Positions 4,477 through 39,846 of a DNA stretch of 64,000 nucleotides are shown one piece after another; positions within the stretch are counted from its first letter, which is position 1; every line of letters begins with the position of its first letter. Location of the stretch: the NCBI GenBank assembly GCA_020073565.1, contig JAIQEY010000034.1:1-64000 (forward strand). Direction: 5' to 3'. The notes below the pieces were generated by a model that saw nothing but the letters and a program-made list of their open reading frames with translations, was not told where the DNA came from and did no database searches. The DNA is from Terriglobia bacterium. Its GTDB lineage: Bacteria > Acidobacteriota > Terriglobia > Terriglobales > Acidobacteriaceae. The position numbers and the translations under genes were made by a program.

Positions 4477-6519
4477 TTAGGTCTGAATGATGCGCGGCGT
4501 GATGAAGAAGATCAGTTCCTGATCCGAGGTCTTCACCGCGCGGTGCTTGAACAGATTCCCGAGGTACGGAATGTCTCCCAGTAGCGGAACCTGGGAGATG
4601 CTCAGCGAGTTCTGCGTTTGGATCACGCCGCCAATCACCACCGTGCCGCCATCGGTCACCAGGACCTGGGTGGTGGCTTGCTGCGTAATCAGTGTCGGGT
4701 TGCCCTGCACTACGTTGCCGAAGTCGGGCAGCGTATTCTCCACGTCCACATTCAGGAAGATGGTCCCTTCCGACGTGATCTGCGGAGTCACCGTGAGGCG
4801 CAGGAACGCGTCCACGTAAGTCACCGTGGGCGGACCGCCCAACTGGGCTTGGGTTGTGACAGGCACGCGTACGCCCTGCTTCACCACCGCTTGGATGTTG
4901 TTCTGAGTCACGACGCGCGGACGGGAAAGAACCTTCAGCAACCCGCGCGATTCGGCCATGGTCAGCAGAAAGTCGATGCGCATGTTGTTGGTGGCATTGA
5001 CGAACTGCAAACCGCTGGTGGGTCCCGTCGCTCCCAAGTTCGAAAACAAGGGAATCTGGGTTCCCGTCGTGCCGCCGCTCGAAACGATATACATCGGATT
5101 CGGAACAAGTCCGCTTCCGATGGTCGTAGGTGTCGTTCCAACACTCTGCACGCCGCCGACCGCCGAGGGTCCGTTGCCCCAACCAAATCCGAGCTGGGTG
5201 CCGATGTCGCGGGCGAATTGCCGGGTGGCGGCCACCACGCGCGCTTCAATCTCGACTTCCTGTGTCTTGCGGTCCATCTGCTGGATGATGCGGTCGATCT
5301 GCGGCAAAGACGCCGGAATGTCAGAAATGATCAGCGAGTTCGTACGATCGTCGGCGACGAGGTCGCCACGCTGGCTGATGAACTTCTTGAGCGTCGGCAC
5401 CACGTCTTTGGAGTGCGCGTAGCTGAGGAACCGTGTGATGGTGACTTTATCCACCGCCAGCGCTTCGGCGTCAATCTGTGCACGCCGGTTCTCGGCTTCC
5501 TTCTTCAATGTTTCGATCGTTGCGATCCGCAGGATGTTGCCTTCCAGTTGCCGTGACAGATCGTTGTTCTTCAGAACGATGTCCAACGCCTGGTCCCACG
5601 GCACGTCATCGAGCACGATGGTGAGGGTGCCCTTGACCTGGGGATCGAGCACAACGTTCAGACCGCTGATCTCGTGGATGAGCCGGAAGAAATCCTTTAG
5701 ATCAACATCCTTCAGGTTGACCGAGATCGGTTCGCCCGTGTACTTGGACCCGCTCGACGCCGGTGCCGGCTGCGCCATCTGCGCCTTCTGTTCGGCGGCC
5801 AGATTCACCGCCGGTTGGATAGCCGGGGCGCTGCCACTGGCAGCATCCTGCTTCATGCTGGCATGCGCGTTGACCGCCACCAGTTCGGCTGCGGTCTTGT
5901 CGGCAAACCGGTCCGCTGCGGCCTGTGCCTTCACGGCGGGCTCAACTGGCACGTTCGCCGGGTCGCTCTTCACCGTCAACTTCGGCTCGACGAACGCAAC
6001 GCTCGCCGCGGGCGCCTCGGATTTCTCCGCCGCCACCGGCGCCGAGACAGCCACCAATTTCGGTGCAGCCGCCTTCGCCGTCGATGCCGCCGGGCGCGTG
6101 GCCACAACCGCATCCTGAATCTTCAGCGTGAAGCTGCCGTCCTGGCCAGCCACCAGCTCATGCTGGCGGGCCGACTCCAAGTCGACGACGAGGCGCGTGC
6201 TGGGCGGCACCTGGCCGTTCATCCCCACGCGTACGCCTTTCACGCCATCGCTGCCCACATTGATGTGACTCAGCGCCGTCGCCATCACGGTGTTGGGAAG
6301 GTCAATCACGATGCGCGAGGGCGAGTCGAGCGTCGTCACTTTGGGCGCCACTACGCCCTTGGCTTTGAACTCGACACGCAGGCCGTCCTGGCCGCGCGTG
6401 ACCTCGAGCCGTTGCAAAGCGGCCGTCGTGGCCATCCCTTTGCCCGGCGTGTCAGCCGCCGCTGCGATCAGTACGAACGCCAGCAGCGTAACAATCAGAC
6501 CCAACAGTTGCTTTCGCAT
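4477..6519 (-). CDS. pilQ: Type IV pilus secretin PilQ
   Basis: The outer-membrane secretin through which type IV pili leave the cell, 680 residues. A signal peptide (LLGLIVTLLAFVLIAAAA) is followed by an AMIN domain (about residues 35-135, which in the family binds peptidoglycan). Next is an Ala-rich linker, then a secretin/TonB short N-terminal domain (VDLKDFFRLIHEISGLNVVL, about 270-340). An N1-type KH domain follows (DDRTNSLIISDIPASLPQID), and the C-terminal secretin core ends in GDIPYLGNLFKHRAV and ELIFFITPRII. Its place last after pilM-N-O-P is the canonical order. A strong terminator follows. Confidence 0.95.
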   Translation of the reverse strand: MRKQLLGLIVTLLAFVLIAAAADTPGKGMATTAALQRLEVTRGQDGLRVEFKAKGVVAPKVTTLDSPSRIVIDLPNTVMATALSHINVGSDGVKGVRVGMNGQVPPSTRLVVDLESARQHELVAGQDGSFTLKIQDAVVATRPAASTAKAAAPKLVAVSAPVAAEKSEAPAASVAFVEPKLTVKSDPANVPVEPAVKAQAAADRFADKTAAELVAVNAHASMKQDAASGSAPAIQPAVNLAAEQKAQMAQPAPASSGSKYTGEPISVNLKDVDLKDFFRLIHEISGLNVVLDPQVKGTLTIVLDDVPWDQALDIVLKNNDLSRQLEGNILRIATIETLKKEAENRRAQIDAEALAVDKVTITRFLSYAHSKDVVPTLKKFISQRGDLVADDRTNSLIISDIPASLPQIDRIIQQMDRKTQEVEIEARVVAATRQFARDIGTQLGFGWGNGPSAVGGVQSVGTTPTTIGSGLVPNPMYIVSSGGTTGTQIPLFSNLGATGPTSGLQFVNATNNMRIDFLLTMAESRGLLKVLSRPRVVTQNNIQAVVKQGVRVPVTTQAQLGGPPTVTYVDAFLRLTVTPQITSEGTIFLNVDVENTLPDFGNVVQGNPTLITQQATTQVLVTDGGTVVIGGVIQTQNSLSISQVPLLGDIPYLGNLFKHRAVKTSDQELIFFITPRIIQT

Positions 6520-7375: not shown

Positions 7376-7999
7376 CTATCGCTTCGCCGGCGTTCCCGGC
7401 TTACCGGCGCCCGCCGGATCCAAGTCATGGCTAAAGTACGTCGTCGTCACGCAGGTCGCTACTACACTCTCGCTGGCCGCGTACTGGTAGGTCTTTTTCG
7501 GGTGCGCGTCCGCCGGCTTCCGGGTCGAAGCCACCAGCAGATTGGAAACATTCATAATGCGTTCCAGTTTGCCCACGCGGTCGAAAAAGCCCAACATCGA
7601 ATAGTACGGGCCGTCAAACTCCACCTCGAAGGGAACTTCGGTGTAGAAGTCTTTGTTGGCGTACGGACGCGCGGTGTAGCGCCGCACTTCCACGCCCGCC
7701 TTGCGCGCTTCCGAGCTCACCATGCGCATGAAGTTGTCCACTTCCTTCTCATCCGGCACAATCTTCCGCTCGATCTCGAGCTGCTGCTTCAGGCTGGCGA
7801 GCTGACGCTCGATATCGGCCAGCTTCGGCCGGTACGCTTCCAGCTCCGCGTTCTCGCGGATCTTCGCCTGCAGCTTGATCTGCGCCGCCGCGTTGTCTTC
7901 CCGCCGCGACTTGAAGACGGTGTAGTAGAGGCCGCCGGTCACGACCGCTCCCGCCAGCACCAGAATCCCCATCAGCTTGAAACCCGAAAGTTCGCCCAT
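7376..7999 (-). CDS. pilO: Type IV pilus inner-membrane platform protein PilO
   Basis: A bitopic inner-membrane protein of 207 residues. A single TM helix near the N-terminus (LMGILVLAGAVVTGGLYYTVF) is followed by a coiled coil (about 35-80, IKLQAKIRENAELEAYRPKL) and a periplasmic ferredoxin-like domain containing VPFEVEFDGPYYSMLGFFDR, the part most conserved in PilO. It pairs with PilN in the alignment subcomplex. Spacing is 13 bases after pilN and 9 bases before pilP. Confidence 0.9.
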   Translation of the reverse strand: MGELSGFKLMGILVLAGAVVTGGLYYTVFKSRREDNAAAQIKLQAKIRENAELEAYRPKLADIERQLASLKQQLEIERKIVPDEKEVDNFMRMVSSEARKAGVEVRRYTARPYANKDFYTEVPFEVEFDGPYYSMLGFFDRVGKLERIMNVSNLLVASTRKPADAHPKKTYQYAASESVVATCVTTTYFSHDLDPAGAGKPGTPAKR

Positions 8000-8603: not shown

Positions 8604-9655
8604 AGCTTTTCAAAGCTCCTCAGGGCCAAACCCACGGCCACTGCCAACTGCCCGGCATTTTGTTCCACTAACTGCGCCGCCGAGCCTTCCACCGGCGCCA
8701 GCACCTTCTGGAAGGGGTTGAACAACTCCACCGGCATCGAGAACTCCTGCCGCAACGCCTCCACCAGACCCGGAACCTTGGCCGATCCCCCGGCCAGATA
8801 AATCTTCTCGATATGCTCGCCCGCCGCGCTGGCGCGGAAGAAGTCAAACGTCTTCTGAATTTCCAGCACGATGATTTCGGTCACTTGCTGCAGGATCGGC
8901 GTTTTCGCGTCGTCGTGCACCGTGCCCACCTTGCGCCCCAGTTTCAGCGACTCGGCGTCATCGAAGCTCAGATCCAGTTCCTTCTGCAGCGAGTCGGTGT
9001 ACTGGTGACCACCCACTGAAACGTCGCGCGGGAACAGCGGGGTCGTGCCCTTCACGATATTGATGTTCATCACGCTGGCACCCAGGTTGAGCAGGGCGAC
9101 CACTTGCCCGGGTGCGGGCTCGTAGTTGTACTCGTAGCAGTTCTGCAGAGCCAGCGCATCGATATCCACAATAGCGGGAGTCTTGCCGGCCATCGAGAGT
9201 ACGTTGGTGTAGTTCAGAATCTTGTCCTTCTTGACGGCCACCAGCAGCACGTCCATCTGCGGGCTGGTCGCGTCGTCGGAGAGAATCTGGTAGTCCAGGT
9301 TCACATCGGCCAGGTCGAAGGGAATGTGCTGCGTGGCTTCCTTCTGGATCGTCTCGGCCAGTTCCTGGTCGCTCATCGAGGGCAGCGAAATCTTCTTCAC
9401 GATCACGGAGTGTCCGCTGACCGCCGTTGCCACCGCTTTCGACTTGATCTCGGTTTCGGTGAACAGCTTCGCAATGGCGCTGGAAACCGTGCCCGAATCG
9501 ACGATCATCGAGTCGACCACGATATCGGGCGCGATCGGCTCCAGACCTAGATGCGCGACTTCGATTCCGGCGCGCGTCTTCCTCAGCTCGACGGCCTTGA
9601 TGCTCGATGAGCCCACATCCAGTCCCACAATCGTCTTCGCTCCGAATCCAAACAT
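8600..9655 (-). CDS. pilM: Type IV pilus ATP-binding assembly protein PilM
   Basis: A cytoplasmic actin-like ATPase-fold protein that binds the PilN N-terminus. From the ATG at 9655 it is 351 residues. The open frame continues to 9814, but MFGFGAKTIVGLDVGSSSIK is the family's true N-terminus, containing the phosphate-1 motif (GLDVGSSSIK). Other landmarks are VDIDALALQNCYEY, VALLNLGASVMNI (phosphate 2) and KIYLAGGSAKVPGL (adenosine motif). It overlaps pilN by 4 bases. Confidence 0.94.
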   Translation of the reverse strand: MFGFGAKTIVGLDVGSSSIKAVELRKTRAGIEVAHLGLEPIAPDIVVDSMIVDSGTVSSAIAKLFTETEIKSKAVATAVSGHSVIVKKISLPSMSDQELAETIQKEATQHIPFDLADVNLDYQILSDDATSPQMDVLLVAVKKDKILNYTNVLSMAGKTPAIVDIDALALQNCYEYNYEPAPGQVVALLNLGASVMNINIVKGTTPLFPRDVSVGGHQYTDSLQKELDLSFDDAESLKLGRKVGTVHDDAKTPILQQVTEIIVLEIQKTFDFFRASAAGEHIEKIYLAGGSAKVPGLVEALRQEFSMPVELFNPFQKVLAPVEGSAAQLVEQNAGQLAVAVGLALRSFEKL

Positions 9656-9673
9656 GTGCCCGCCTTCTGTAGC

Positions 9674-9690
9674 GCCGGCGTCCCGCCGGC
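9674..9690. repeat. Short GC hairpin between the HTH gene and pilM
   Basis: GCCGGC (9674-9679) and GCCGGC (9685-9690) flank a GTCCC loop, and AGTTTTTC follows on the plus strand. It belongs to the compact GC hairpins with a short C-rich loop that recur in this window (19178-19194, 28310-28327, 29424-29443, 30415-30434). On the minus strand it lies inside the pil transcript. Confidence 0.6.
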
Positions 9691-9729
9691 AGTTTTTCGT
9701 AGTATCGGCATTTCGCCGAAAAAAATCGT

Positions 9730-9966
9730 CTACGATTGCCCGGCCGCTTTGATGGCCGCTTTCACTTTCTTCTTCCCCCGCGGTTCCTGCTCCATCGACT
9801 TCTCTTCCATCCACTGGTCGAGCTTCGATTTCTTGAAGCGCCAGCGATTGCCCAGCTTGAACGCGGGAATACTCTGCTCGTTCACGTACTTGTACAGCGT
9901 GTCCGGACTCACTCCCAGGTACTGCGACGCCTGGCGAATGTTCATCACTTCACGCGAGTCAGCCAT
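9730..9966 (-). CDS. Small MerR/excisionase-type helix-turn-helix protein heading the pil operon
   Basis: A 78-residue DNA-binding protein of the HTH_17 (excisionase/BldC-like) type. The winged-helix core is MNIRQASQYLGVSPDTLYKY followed by SIPAFKLGNRWRFKKSKLDQ, which gives the recognition helix and wing, and the tail is Lys-rich. It precedes pilM by 74 bases on the same strand with no terminator visible, so it is probably the first gene of the pil operon and may regulate it. Similar proteins occur as phage excisionases, but no integrase or attachment site is seen here. Confidence 0.85.
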   Translation of the reverse strand: MADSREVMNIRQASQYLGVSPDTLYKYVNEQSIPAFKLGNRWRFKKSKLDQWMEEKSMEQEPRGKKKVKAAIKAAGQS

Positions 9967-10452
9967 AAGCGTTTTCCCCTTCCGCAGCCCTTGTTCTCAG
10001 CCCAGCCATTCTTCCCGGCAGCACTGAGGAAATTGGGAGAACCAAGTCCTCGATTCAATTGCCTTCGAGTGAGTTTTGGTGTGCTGAGCATATCTCAACC
10101 GGAACTGCGGGCCAGTCCACGTGAATCTCCGGGTTTTGCTGGGTTTTATGGGTGTTTTCTGGAATTCGGGAAAGTGCGAGTTGCAGGTGCGCCATGTATA
10201 TAGTATGGGTATGCTTGAATACTACAATTACTGGTAGTTGTTCGGCGAATGATGCCCCAGTCACCAAGGTTGGCGTAACTAAGGTACTAGAGACGGTACG
10301 GAGGTACTTGCACGGGCGCGCATCTCATTGAAAATACAGCAACGAATCTCCTCCGCTCGCCTCGAGAATCCAGTCGTTTTCTCTTGCGTTGCTCAGCTCA
10401 ATTTGCTGATTTCCCAAACATGCGCAGATAATGAAAAACGGATCTACACAAC
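9967..10452. other. 486-base divergent intergenic region upstream of the pil operon
   Basis: No convincing gene lies here; a 70-codon minus-strand frame at 10055-10267 has no recognisable domain. It should hold the promoters of the pil operon (minus) and the rhodanese gene (plus). A possible minus-strand promoter is TTGTAG (10222-10227) and TACTAT (10200-10205) with a 16-base spacer, in a locally AT-rich patch. This is a pattern match only. Confidence 0.5.
10200..10227 (-). promoter_or_regulatory. Candidate sigma-70 promoter for the HTH-pil operon
   Basis: On the minus strand TTGTAG is separated by 16 bases from TACTAT, about 230 bases upstream of the HTH start. This is weak evidence, supported only by its place in the single AT-rich stretch of the gap. 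Confidence 0.25.
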
Positions 10453-10914
10453 ATGCGACGTCGCTCCTGCTCCCGCCCGCTCGTCATTCTTGTTCTGCTT
10501 TTTGGACTAGCTGAGGTGCCACTCGCTTGCGCCGCCGACAGCGCCAGCATGAAGACGATCTCGACCGACGAACTCGTGCGACTCCTGGCAGAAAAGACCG
10601 GCAAGCCTCTTTTGTTTCAGGTTGGCTCCCACATGCTCTATGCTCAAGCGCACATTCCCGGGTCGGAATATCTGGGCGCCGGAAACACTCCGCAAGGAAT
10701 TCAAAACCTGCGCGAGCGCGTGGGCACCCTGCCGAAGAATACTTCCATCGTGCTCTATTGCGGATGCTGTCCGTGGAGCCATTGTCCGAATGTGAATCCC
10801 GCCTACGACACGCTCCAGCAGCTGGGCTTCACGAACGTGAAGGTTTTGTTCCTGGCCAACAACTTCGGCGCCGACTGGGTGGACAAGGGATATCCCGTAG
10901 CCAAGGGCGACTAA
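10453..10914 (+). CDS. Exported rhodanese-like protein with a cysteine-rich active-site loop
   Basis: A 153-residue protein with a signal peptide (LVILVLLFGLAEVPLACAA) and one rhodanese domain (STDELVRLLAEKTGKPLLFQ, HIPGSEYLGAG, LPKNTSIVLYCGCCPWSHC). In ordinary rhodaneses a single catalytic Cys starts the loop. Here the loop has four cysteines (C-G-C-C-P-W-S-H-C), which suggests metal or redox chemistry rather than simple sulfur transfer (inference). The next gene starts 7 bases after its stop and encodes a TlpA-type thioredoxin, so the two probably act together in periplasmic thiol or copper/sulfur handling. Confidence 0.85.
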   Translation: MRRRSCSRPLVILVLLFGLAEVPLACAADSASMKTISTDELVRLLAEKTGKPLLFQVGSHMLYAQAHIPGSEYLGAGNTPQGIQNLRERVGTLPKNTSIVLYCGCCPWSHCPNVNPAYDTLQQLGFTNVKVLFLANNFGADWVDKGYPVAKGD

Positions 10915-10921
10915 ACCCATC

Positions 10922-11434
10922 GTGAAAAAAGCGTTACTCATCCTCGCCGCCGGATTCCTCCTCCTCGGCTGGGCCGTGTGGCAACACTCGACCAAGCCGC
11001 GTATCACCGGTCCAAGACCAGCGCCCGCCTTCACGCTCACCGATCTCTCCGGCCGCACCGTCAGCCTGTCGGACTACCGCGGCAAAGTCGTGGTGCTGGA
11101 TTTCTGGGCCACCTGGTGCGAGCCCTGCAAGCAGGAGATCCCCCACTTCATCGAGATGCAGGACAAGTACGCGTCGCAAGGACTGCAAGTACTCGGCGTT
11201 TCCATGGACGACGATGAGCCGCCCGTCCGCCAGTTTCAGCAACAATTCAAAATGAATTACCCAGTCGCGATGGGCAGTCCCAAGCTCGCCGACCAATACG
11301 GCGGAATCCTCGGCCTGCCAATCACCTTCGTGATCGATCGCAACGGTCGAATCACCGCCCGTCACGTCGGCGCCACGGAAGCCTCGGTGATCGAAGCGGA
11401 GATCCAGAAGTTGCTGGCCCAACCGCAGTCGTAG
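10922..11434 (+). CDS. TlpA/ResA-like membrane-anchored thioredoxin
   Basis: A 170-residue thiol-disulfide oxidoreductase tethered by an N-terminal helix (ALLILAAGFLLLGWAVW) with its domain in the periplasm. The AhpC/TSA-thioredoxin fold is clear: FTLTDLSGRTVSLSDYRGKV, then the redox motif WATWCEPCKQEIP (CxxC), SMDDDEP, and the cis-Pro region GLPITFVIDRNG. It starts with GTG seven bases after the rhodanese gene. Proteins of this kind reduce apocytochrome c or other periplasmic disulfides; the actual partner is unknown. Confidence 0.92.
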   Translation: MKKALLILAAGFLLLGWAVWQHSTKPRITGPRPAPAFTLTDLSGRTVSLSDYRGKVVVLDFWATWCEPCKQEIPHFIEMQDKYASQGLQVLGVSMDDDEPPVRQFQQQFKMNYPVAMGSPKLADQYGGILGLPITFVIDRNGRITARHVGATEASVIEAEIQKLLAQPQS

Positions 11435-35903: not shown

Positions 35904-35925
35904 GCGCGGACAGGAGTGTCCGCGC
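35904..35925. repeat. GC hairpin (GCGCGGACA stem) left of the CMD gene
   Basis: GCGCGGACA and TGTCCGCGC form a 9-bp stem with loop GGAG, followed by CACAC. It is the inverse-oriented partner of the copies at 36357-36381 and 36406-36430. Confidence 0.8.
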
Positions 35926-36438: not shown

Positions 36439-38001
36439 CTACATCCCCGGATTGTCCGGATACGCCGGCAAATCCGGAGGCCGCGCGGGCAGCTTCTTCG
36501 GATTCGCCTTGATCTGCTCCATCAGCATCTCGACCGCTTTCTCCAGTTGCGGGTCTTGCCCTTTCCGCACCAGGTCCGGCGGATTATCCACCACGACGTC
36601 CGGCTGCACGCCGCGGTTTTCGATCAGCCACTTGCTGTCGAGCCCGTAAAGCGAAAATTCCGGCCGGGTGATGTAACCGCCGTCCATCAGCGGTATTTGC
36701 CCGCGAATTCCGCGGACGCCGCCCCAGGTGCGCTCGCCGATGAGCGGCCCCAGTTTGTACTGCTTGAAGAAGTAGCTGAAGAAATCGCCGTCAGACGCGG
36801 CGTAATGGTTCGTGACGCAGGCCATATAACCGTGGAACGTATTACCGGGGATCGTGCCCGACTCCCAGTTGCGCGCTGAATCCATGCCCATCAGCACACG
36901 CCGCAGCCGCGCAAAAATAAGCTCGTCGACGAACCCGCCGCCGTTGTAGCGGACGTCGAAGATAATGCCCTCCTTGCGAATTTGCGGAAAATACTGCTTC
37001 ACAAATTGATTCAGCCCATCGTCCCCCATATCCGGCAGGTACACGTAACCGATCCGCCCGCCGCTCGCGGCCTCCACCTTCTTCCGGTTCGTCTCAATCA
37101 TGTTGAGCTCGCGCAGGGAGTACTCATCGCCGATCGGCTTGACGGTCACGTTGCGCGCGCCGTCCGCTGCGGGCTTCGAGTTCACGGTCAGCGTCACCAC
37201 GTCGTTGGCCGCGTTTACCAGCAACTCGTCCGGAGTCTGCGGAGCCTTCAATGCCCGTCCGTTGATGGCGATCAGGTAATCGCCTTCTTTCACGTTCACG
37301 CCCGGCTCAGTCAACGGCGAACGGGCATGCGCGTCCCAGTTTTCGCCAGCATAGATCTTCGTGATGCGATAGACACCGCTCGCATCGGCTTCGTAGTCCG
37401 CTCCCAGCAGCCCCACATTCACCGGATGCAGATCGGGAAAATCGCCCCCGCCCACATAAGTATGGGAATTCGACAGCTCCCCGATCATCTCGCCCAGAAC
37501 GTAGGTCAGGGAATAGCGGTCCGCTACATAAGGAAGCAACGGCGCGTATTTGTCGCGCATCTTCTTCCAATCCACGCCGTTCATCGAGGCTTCGAAGAAG
37601 TAGTCGCGCTCCTGCCGCCACACTTCGTTGAAAACCTCCTTCCATTCCTGCGTAGGATCAGCCTCCACCTGCATGCCTCCCAGATTGAGAGCGCCATCGC
37701 CGACTTTGTGCGGAGTATCAGGAGGCTTCGCGTCGACAATGCCGTAGCTCGGCGCCCCGCCACCGCCCGGGCCACCGCCGGCGCGGTAGAGCAACTTCGC
37801 CCCATCCGACGAGAGCGCAAAATGATCCGCGCCTTCCACCAGCACTTTGTCCTTGCGATCTTTCAGATCGTAGCCGTAGATCGCCGGATTCTCGCCCGCA
37901 ATCGGTCCCGACAATCCCTGGATCGGAGCGCTCGCATAGTAGACCGCGTCCTTCGACGCATCGATGGCACGAATCACCGCCGGCGGAACCGGCAATGCCA
38001 C
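36439..38001 (-). CDS. Tricorn-like protease, C-terminal half (PDZ and S41 domains), separated by a TAG from the N-terminal half
   Basis: A 520-residue frame from a GTG at 38001 that holds the C-terminal part of a tricorn/S41 protease. In order: the C1 helical region (WKEVFNEVWRQERDYFFEAS) with catalytic His in MIGELSNSHTYVGGG, a PDZ domain (VNVKEGDYLIAINGRALKAP), and the C2 domain with GRIGYVYLPDMGDDGLNQFV. The nucleophile region follows (CVTNHYAASDGDFFSYFFK, Ser before DGD), then the Glu in LIENRGVQPDVVVD. All catalytic residues are present. It is in the same reading frame as the upstream gene, with only TAG at 38077-38079 between, and the 25 intervening codons are open. No ribosome binding site or signal peptide of its own is evident, so alone it would not be exported. 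Confidence 0.85.
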   Translation of the reverse strand: MALPVPPAVIRAIDASKDAVYYASAPIQGLSGPIAGENPAIYGYDLKDRKDKVLVEGADHFALSSDGAKLLYRAGGGPGGGGAPSYGIVDAKPPDTPHKVGDGALNLGGMQVEADPTQEWKEVFNEVWRQERDYFFEASMNGVDWKKMRDKYAPLLPYVADRYSLTYVLGEMIGELSNSHTYVGGGDFPDLHPVNVGLLGADYEADASGVYRITKIYAGENWDAHARSPLTEPGVNVKEGDYLIAINGRALKAPQTPDELLVNAANDVVTLTVNSKPAADGARNVTVKPIGDEYSLRELNMIETNRKKVEAASGGRIGYVYLPDMGDDGLNQFVKQYFPQIRKEGIIFDVRYNGGGFVDELIFARLRRVLMGMDSARNWESGTIPGNTFHGYMACVTNHYAASDGDFFSYFFKQYKLGPLIGERTWGGVRGIRGQIPLMDGGYITRPEFSLYGLDSKWLIENRGVQPDVVVDNPPDLVRKGQDPQLEKAVEMLMEQIKANPKKLPARPPDLPAYPDNPGM

Positions 38002-38076
38002 AATCCGATTCTGGATGCCGTCCAGATCGATCTTGAACTCCTTCGGCGGCTCCTTGGCCTCGCTCCCCGCTTCTTT

Positions 38077-39846
38077 CTAGCCCGGTTTCCCTTCTTTTCC
38101 CTTTTCCTTGGATGGCTGCTTAGCGTTCTTCTTCTGCTCCGGCGCGGTTCCACCCGCCTCCGGCTCTTCTGCCTTCACTTTCACTTCGTCACTGAGCGCC
38201 GGAAACGGAGAAGGCTCATCCGGCGTCAGCGTCACCACGTACACCCGTGTCGTCTTCGGATTCGCAAACTCAAAATCGATATTGCCCAAGACTTCGTTGT
38301 AGTCGCGATCCGAAAGGAAGTAGAGATACCGCTTGCCCGGATCAAACACCGCCGCATAACTGTTGTTGAGCATGGAAGTAACTGCGGTGGTTTTCTTGTC
38401 GGCCAAACTATAGAGGTACACAACCGAGTAGCCAGACTCCTGCTGCTTGTCGTACGCCAGCCACTTGCTGTCGGGAGACCACGCGTAGTTTCGAATCTCG
38501 AAGTACTTGGCGCGATCCACCTCCACTGGCTTCTTTTCCTTGATGTCCACGTACCAGAGCTTCAGATCCTTGTCCGCCCACGCGATCTTTGTATCGTCCA
38601 CCGACCACACCGGCTGAAACATGAACCCCGTATGCCCACTGGTGATCTGCTGCTCCGCTCCCAATCCATCCTGGGGAGCGATGTAGATTTCGTCTTCGCC
38701 CGTGCGATCCGAAACGTAGGCGATCCACCGCCCGTTGTGCGACCACGCCACGTGCTGCTCGCGCACGCCGGGAGAGTTCGTCAGATTGCGAACGCTGCCG
38801 TCCTTGGCAGGAACGGTGAAGACTTCCCCGCGGGCCGCGAACGCCGCGCGCTTGCCGTCGGGCGAAATATCGTAATCCGTGATGTTGCGGCTGGCGCTCA
38901 CCCAATGCTTCATGGTCTGATCGCGCTCGCCTGGCACGTAGATTGTCAGTTTCTTCGGCTGCTTCGTCTGCAAATCGAAGGTGTACAGATAGCCGGCATT
39001 CTCGAACACAATCGCATCCGGCCCCAGGCTCGGCCACATCACATCGAACTCGTCGAAGTGCGTCAGTTGCTCGACTTGCTTGCTGACGAGGTCGTAGCTG
39101 TACAGGTTCATCTTTTGCTCTGCCCCGCGGTCGGACATGAAATAGACCGTGTTCCCGCGCCACATCGGAAACGTGTCGGTGTGTTCGGTGTGCGGAATCG
39201 CCGCGTCGACGGCATTGTTCTTGATGTCGTAGATCGTGATGTCCTGCGCCAGGCCGCCCGTGTAACGTTTCCACTGGCGGAAATTACGGAAGATGCGGTT
39301 GTAGGCGATCTTCGTTCCGTCGGCCGAAAAAGAAAGCAGCCCGCCTTCGTCCATCGGCATGGGCTGCGGTAGACCACCCTCAAGCCCGATGGTAAAAGGC
39401 CTCTTGATCCACCCATTCGAAGCGTCGCGGCGCGAGAGAAAAACAATGCGCTGGCTGTCCGGAGTCCAGGCAATCACCTCGTCGTGGATACCCATGCGAT
39501 CGCTAAGCTGCCCCGCCGAACCCTGGTAGAACGTCAACTGACGGGGTTGACCACCAGTCGCCGGCATGACATACACATTGAAATTGCCGTCGTACTGACC
39601 GGTGAATGCCAGCCATTTGCCGTCCGGGGAAAACTTCGGGAACAGTTCCCTTCCCGGATGCGAAGTGATCCGGCTTGCCGTGCCGCCTGAACTCGAAACC
39701 AGCCAAAGGTCGCCGCCATACATGAATGCAATCTTGTCTTTCGAAATATCGGGAAAACGCAGCAGGCGGCCTTCTTGCATTTCCTGGGCTGCAGCCAGGC
39801 AAGTGAAGGTGATCATGAGGAGCAGGGTTTTTCGAATCGAAAACAT
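38077..39846 (-). CDS. Tricorn-like protease, N-terminal half (signal peptide and beta-propellers)
   Basis: A 589-residue frame starting after AAGGAG, with a signal peptide (TLLLMITFTCLAAAQ). It holds two beta-propellers made of TolB/WD40-like PD40 repeats: MYGGDLWLVSSSGGTASRIT, FPKFSPDGKWLAFTGQYDGN, DYDISPDGKRAAFAARGEVF, VAWSHNGRWIAYVSDRTGED. It ends in a Lys/Glu/Pro-rich tract (KKNAKQPSKEKGKEGKPG) where a single TAG stops it. In tricorn homologues this half channels peptides to the S41 domain. The protease half follows in the same frame, so the ancestral protein was about 1,135 residues. Confidence 0.85.
   Translation of the reverse strand: MFSIRKTLLLMITFTCLAAAQEMQEGRLLRFPDISKDKIAFMYGGDLWLVSSSGGTASRITSHPGRELFPKFSPDGKWLAFTGQYDGNFNVYVMPATGGQPRQLTFYQGSAGQLSDRMGIHDEVIAWTPDSQRIVFLSRRDASNGWIKRPFTIGLEGGLPQPMPMDEGGLLSFSADGTKIAYNRIFRNFRQWKRYTGGLAQDITIYDIKNNAVDAAIPHTEHTDTFPMWRGNTVYFMSDRGAEQKMNLYSYDLVSKQVEQLTHFDEFDVMWPSLGPDAIVFENAGYLYTFDLQTKQPKKLTIYVPGERDQTMKHWVSASRNITDYDISPDGKRAAFAARGEVFTVPAKDGSVRNLTNSPGVREQHVAWSHNGRWIAYVSDRTGEDEIYIAPQDGLGAEQQITSGHTGFMFQPVWSVDDTKIAWADKDLKLWYVDIKEKKPVEVDRAKYFEIRNYAWSPDSKWLAYDKQQESGYSVVYLYSLADKKTTAVTSMLNNSYAAVFDPGKRYLYFLSDRDYNEVLGNIDFEFANPKTTRVYVVTLTPDEPSPFPALSDEVKVKAEEPEAGGTAPEQKKNAKQPSKEKGKEGKPG

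Follow-up and report, generated by a model that had tools for sequence, protein, structure and literature searches.

A tricorn-like protease gene of a Terriglobia bacterium interrupted by one in-frame TAG, probably a very recent nonsense allele

In the draft genome of a Terriglobia bacterium, a gene for a tricorn-like S41 protease is broken by a stop codon near its middle. Is this stop a mutation, a fault in the sequence, a codon that the cell reads through, or the boundary between two separately made chains? The gene lies on the reverse strand at positions 36439-39846 of the window (the whole stretch of DNA that was analyzed, 64,000 nucleotides long) and forms a single frame of 1136 codons including both stops. 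Its sole internal stop is a TAG at 38077-38079, codon 590. The interrupted frame is not a chance arrangement, because an intact 1191-codon frame from a related genome (locus L032) matches the whole of it at 92% identity, and the neighboring genes match too. The first-pass annotation, which had seen here one tricorn-like gene with one in-frame amber codon, was therefore right on this point. The parts of the gene are as follows.

38077-39846, reverse strand: upstream part, with a signal-peptide-like N terminus (by eye), the first propeller, and the larger part of the second, up to the TAG; propellers are placed from the strand list of the L032 model.
38077-38079, reverse strand: the interrupting TAG (codon 590), within a K/E-rich loop modeled at low confidence; Glu or Asp stands at the aligned column in 22 chosen orthologues.
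36442-38076, reverse strand: downstream part in the same frame, with the end of the second propeller and then C1, PDZ, and S41.
38002-38076, reverse strand: 25 open codons from the TAG to the GTG of the second listed open reading frame (ORF), with no T in the first 39 bases 3' of the TAG.
36439-36441, reverse strand: terminal stop of the reading frame, also TAG.

The domain content is that of a tricorn-like protease. PD40 and DPPIV_N score above the Pfam cut-offs in the upstream part, as do Tricorn_C1, PDZ_Tricorn, and Peptidase_S41 in the downstream part, so that the propeller repeats are followed by C1, PDZ, and S41 in the same order as in the tricorn protease of Thermoplasma acidophilum (PDB 1k32; peptidase family S41). 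The downstream part aligns with 1k32 at E 3.2e-74, and the active-site motifs SH, SDGD, and ENxGV, which we take to hold the catalytic His, Ser, and Glu, fall in register; by this alignment the predicted catalytic residues are in place in the window copy. Unlike 1k32, the window gene has an N terminus that by eye resembles a signal peptide, and there is a K/E-rich stretch of low model confidence in the second propeller, where the window copy has its TAG. The first-pass division of the gene into a half with signal peptide and propellers and a half with PDZ and S41 is borne out by these domains and motifs, except that the downstream part also includes some 125 residues ahead of C1 (which begins at its residue 141), and these align with the propeller region of tricorn.

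Where the stop falls within the fold was judged from a model of L032, the nearest intact orthologue, rather than of the window copy itself. This model (mean pLDDT 76.3, pTM 0.77) resembles 1k32 with TM-scores of 0.79/0.87 and an rmsd of 6.2. The TAG aligns with L032 residue 590, inside a stretch, residues 550-602, where pLDDT is below 50; a strand at 533-539 precedes it, and a helix at 611-614 and strands from 615 on follow. Counted from the strand list rather than by geometry, and with the domain limits that we assume for tricorn, blades of the second propeller lie on both sides of the stop, ahead of C1. The stop thus appears to cut inside the second propeller, in a disordered loop, rather than at a domain boundary, and the loop, going by the model, seems tolerant of change. 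Among the sites of the gene that are one step from a nonsense codon, the linker at residues 556-615 holds 28 of 388 (7%), so that a stop there is mildly unexpected by chance. The position fits a tolerated break or a leak, but a single event proves nothing.

The stop looks private to this genome among the relatives examined. In 22 of 22 hand-chosen orthologues (21 of 74 named loci, plus L013) the column aligned with the TAG holds an amino acid, Glu in 18 and Asp in 4, although the loop is gapped and of low complexity and the column is sure for the closest rows only. Inspection of this codon in the closest relatives, which the first-pass annotation had proposed as a check, therefore turns up no stop, and the L032 codon differs from the TAG by one base. 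In a search of 24 genomes of the same genus, the source genome included, all 13 rows of at least 79% identity other than the window's own are without an internal stop; these rows overlap the named loci (L032, for example, lies in G017:C220). Family-wide, a match with E no higher than 1e-100 occurs in 151 of 300 genomes. By a hand count among the matches listed, in which two candidates per genome were scored, 4 of 150 rows have an internal stop; one is the window TAG, and the other three all lie in roughly the last 30 residues before the C terminus.

Script-based sorting of the 74 named loci gave 56 as intact, 12 as intact though truncated by a contig end, 5 as "interrupted," and 1 as "B only." Several of these calls do not stand: in L037, L061, and L098 the break coincides with undetermined bases, and L105 is an artifact of the sorting criterion. 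Of the remaining two, L063 appears to be frameshifted, and L103 carries an in-frame TGA along with further damage. Thus 2 of the 74 appear truly interrupted, neither of them at the TAG column. L103, from the Bacteroidales assembly fen_964, is a tricorn-like copy with its TGA in the PDZ region, an upstream half that is not recognizable, and a lost end. A distant row in the genus search, G003:C27, also has one TAG; at 30% identity it is an S41 paralogue and was set aside as no orthologue.

L032 itself (Terriglobia bacterium SRVP_41, contig G017:C220) differs from the window gene in having no internal stop, and its surroundings match the neighborhood of the window gene in pieces. Three REP-like palindromes (GCGCGG...CCGCGC type) lie beyond the 3' end of the window gene, at 35904, 36360, and 36406, and a similar stretch lies 3' of the gene in L032, at 5645-5686.

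An old lesion should have left a pseudogene mark in the half that it silences. In the comparison of the window gene with L032, residues 1-555 give a dN/dS of 0.091 and residues 616-1135 one of 0.090, and the linker at 556-615 (59 codons) gives 0.058. We also polarized codon changes of a single base, using four outgroups and requiring three or more of them to agree. In the downstream half the nonsynonymous/synonymous counts are 9/48 on the window branch and 9/39 on the L032 branch (Fisher p 0.80; dropped were 21 ambiguous, 10 multiple, and 14 other changes, and 4 without outgroup), and in the upstream half they are 20/51 and 13/40, respectively (18 ambiguous, 15 multiple, and 22 other changes dropped). 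Neither measure reveals relaxed selection in the downstream half. Under a simple model the unconstrained share of the window branch has a median of 2.3%, with 95% of the distribution below 7.2%; had the whole branch been neutral, about 5.7 further downstream stops would be expected, and none is observed. Because downstream selection is undiminished, either the stop arose very recently, or the downstream half is translated even now, or the base call is incorrect. A pseudogene would, on these counts, be compatible only with a very recent lesion, and the same pattern is just as expected under a base error or readthrough. The first-pass annotation had read the intactness of the two halves as pointing to a very recent event or to readthrough; selection on the window branch supports this, and sequence error, which it had also listed, fits as well.

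Four explanations can be weighed against this evidence, and the weights that we give them are judgements. We think it probable that the TAG is a very recent nonsense allele and that the organism really carries this base. The intact gene would encode a secreted tricorn-like S41 protease with two beta-propellers, a C1 domain, a PDZ domain, and the protease core. One codon of the disordered loop in the second propeller would have become TAG, and release factor 1 (RF1) would terminate there efficiently, yielding a 589-residue propeller fragment that may still be exported. The window copy is most likely inactive, because termination at the TAG would leave a fragment without the protease core. The change would be so recent that purifying selection remains fully visible in the downstream half. 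The source genome also has two full-length tricorn-like paralogues, whose frames are open over 1220 and 1150 codons (40-41% identity), and these may cushion the loss. (Four matches to Tricorn_C1 occur in this genome; the fourth lies in a frame of 466 codons.) Counted against a recent nonsense mutation is the location of the stop in the loop where, by the model, a break would least harm the fold. Genes interrupted by nonsense mutations are a known class in bacteria, and the window gene resembles them in its private, lone stop, its otherwise intact frame, and the presence of paralogues; it differs in showing no detectable downstream decay yet.

Next, the TAG could be a sequencing or consensus error, or a base of a minority strain taken up by the assembler, so that the gene would be intact in most of the organisms. 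This we regard as unlikely, though to be taken seriously. The source genome, probably that of a soil acidobacterium, is a draft in 123 contigs, presumably assembled from a metagenome, and its contamination is estimated at 6.02%. The codon is one base away from that of the nearest relative, and apart from the TAG nothing is amiss in the frame or in the selection on it. Against an error, the assembly is not broadly noisy here. On the 32.8-kb contig of L032, 15 of 30 ORFs examined match the window, and 11 of these 15 are without a stop in it; the remaining four are the tricorn-like gene itself and three ORFs that run antisense to intact genes (a carboxymuconolactone-decarboxylase gene, glpX, and, by eye, a transporter-like gene). 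Likewise, none of 49 PD40 rows in the source genome has an internal stop.

A poorer candidate, to which we give a small share of belief, is readthrough of the TAG by near-cognate tRNAs or by an unseen weak suppressor, at a level sufficient for some full-length protease. Undiminished downstream selection would follow directly from it, and the loop, to judge from the L032 model, would tolerate any inserted residue. The sequence context is suggestive as well: the first T after the stop comes 40 bases downstream, leaving a 39-base T-free stretch, and an E. coli reporter study describes a trend in which readthrough was higher where the downstream sequence was rich in G and poor in T (PMC11126739). 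By analogy, the T-free stretch could favor some leak. But the T-poor context is largely coding sequence common to relatives, and in the same study TAG was less leaky than TGA in E. coli (PMC11126739). The 80 bases 3' of the stop fold no better than shuffles (z -0.70). Conserved programmed readthrough is not seen either, with 0 of 22 chosen orthologues having a stop at the column and the three other stops among the 150 listed rows being C-terminal; the TAG occurs in the source genome only, among the relatives examined. Nor did the window yield a second TAG-interrupted gene among its three other TAG-separated pairs of long frames (the gene's own terminal TAG aside): one pair is PilO followed by a weak, below-cut-off PilP match, hence neighboring genes, and the other two have no Pfam match. 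A more specific form of the idea is that the TAG is a functional leak in a flexible loop, newly evolved in this species, giving mostly a secreted propeller-only fragment and, through the T-free, purine-rich context, a small full-length share; this we think very improbable. Among the papers listed by literature searches on tricorn structure, on tricorn in Acidobacteria, and on readthrough or suppressor tRNAs, we recognized none as dealing with the window gene.

The first-pass annotation had also suggested amber suppression and a search for a suppressor tRNA. The suggestion finds no support, there being no CUA-anticodon tRNA among those examined and an intact RF1 gene. RF1 is neither lost nor decayed in the source genome: prfA scores 536.3 bits against a cut-off of 423.25 and has no internal stop. 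All 58 tRNA places listed for this draft genome were covered by fetched loci (30 + 28) and scanned for their anticodons, and neither these nor the selenocysteine tRNA reads CUA, with 43 of 193 first-look candidates left unscored. The strict scan made no call at three of the 58 places (one on contig C8, two on C90) and at one further C90 place that came from the selenocysteine tRNA search only; a lenient scan gave anticodons for these four, none of them CUA. The selenocysteine tRNA lies at G000:C47:96247-96339 on the reverse strand (locus L157; 71 bits, anticodon tca; G000 is the source genome).

Contig C90 deserves a separate description. Its locus L139 (G000:C90, 11192 bp) carries a 12-tRNA array at 7516-7979 (forward) and 9270-11139 (reverse), flanking a gene for the RNA ligase RtcB (PF01139, 435.9 bits) and adjoining an alpha-2-macroglobulin-type gene and a DUF1175 gene. 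The array is cut by the contig end and may continue beyond it; a 13th, partial tRNA there, without a scan call, looks by eye like Thr-cgt. No CUA tRNA is present among the 12 or among the called tRNAs of the array stretches of G002, G007, and G017. Of the 10 RtcB loci in the genus search, 4 have such an array (G000, G007, G002, and G017:C117, those of G002 and G017:C117 beside RtcB fragments), with 26, 24, and 7 tRNAs in wider stretches of G007, G002, and G017, respectively. No tRNA was called at the remaining six loci, among them those with full or near-full RtcB genes in G015, G011, and G017:C10. In Anabaena, a large megaplasmid tRNA operon and the chromosomal rtcB are reported to be under one shared repressor (PMC10272220).

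Finally, a real two-chain protein, which the first-pass annotation had also raised, has almost nothing to recommend it: reinitiation could in principle begin at the GTG at 38001, which opens the second listed ORF 75 bases 3' of the TAG and is matched by an ATG at the aligned place in L032, but such a split is unlikely because the stop lies, by the strand count, inside the second propeller and not between domains, and the second half, which by eye lacks a signal peptide, would remain cytoplasmic whereas the first would be exported. Nothing clear came out of a promoter and terminator scan near the stop: no promoter-like site of the sigma-70 type lies in 37700-38400, and there is a single terminator-like site where shuffles give 0.7. 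All 22 chosen orthologues are unsplit at the place of the TAG, and relatives with two separate genes, each with its own start, were seen neither among these nor at this column in the 74 named loci.

A very recent nonsense allele therefore remains the reading that we prefer, and as an interrupted tricorn-like protease gene this is an ordinary case. For annotation, the consequence is that the locus be recorded as a single interrupted gene and not as two proteins; it means little beyond that. More generally, selection on the sequence downstream of a stop codon can bound the age of that stop in a draft genome, even with no reads at hand.
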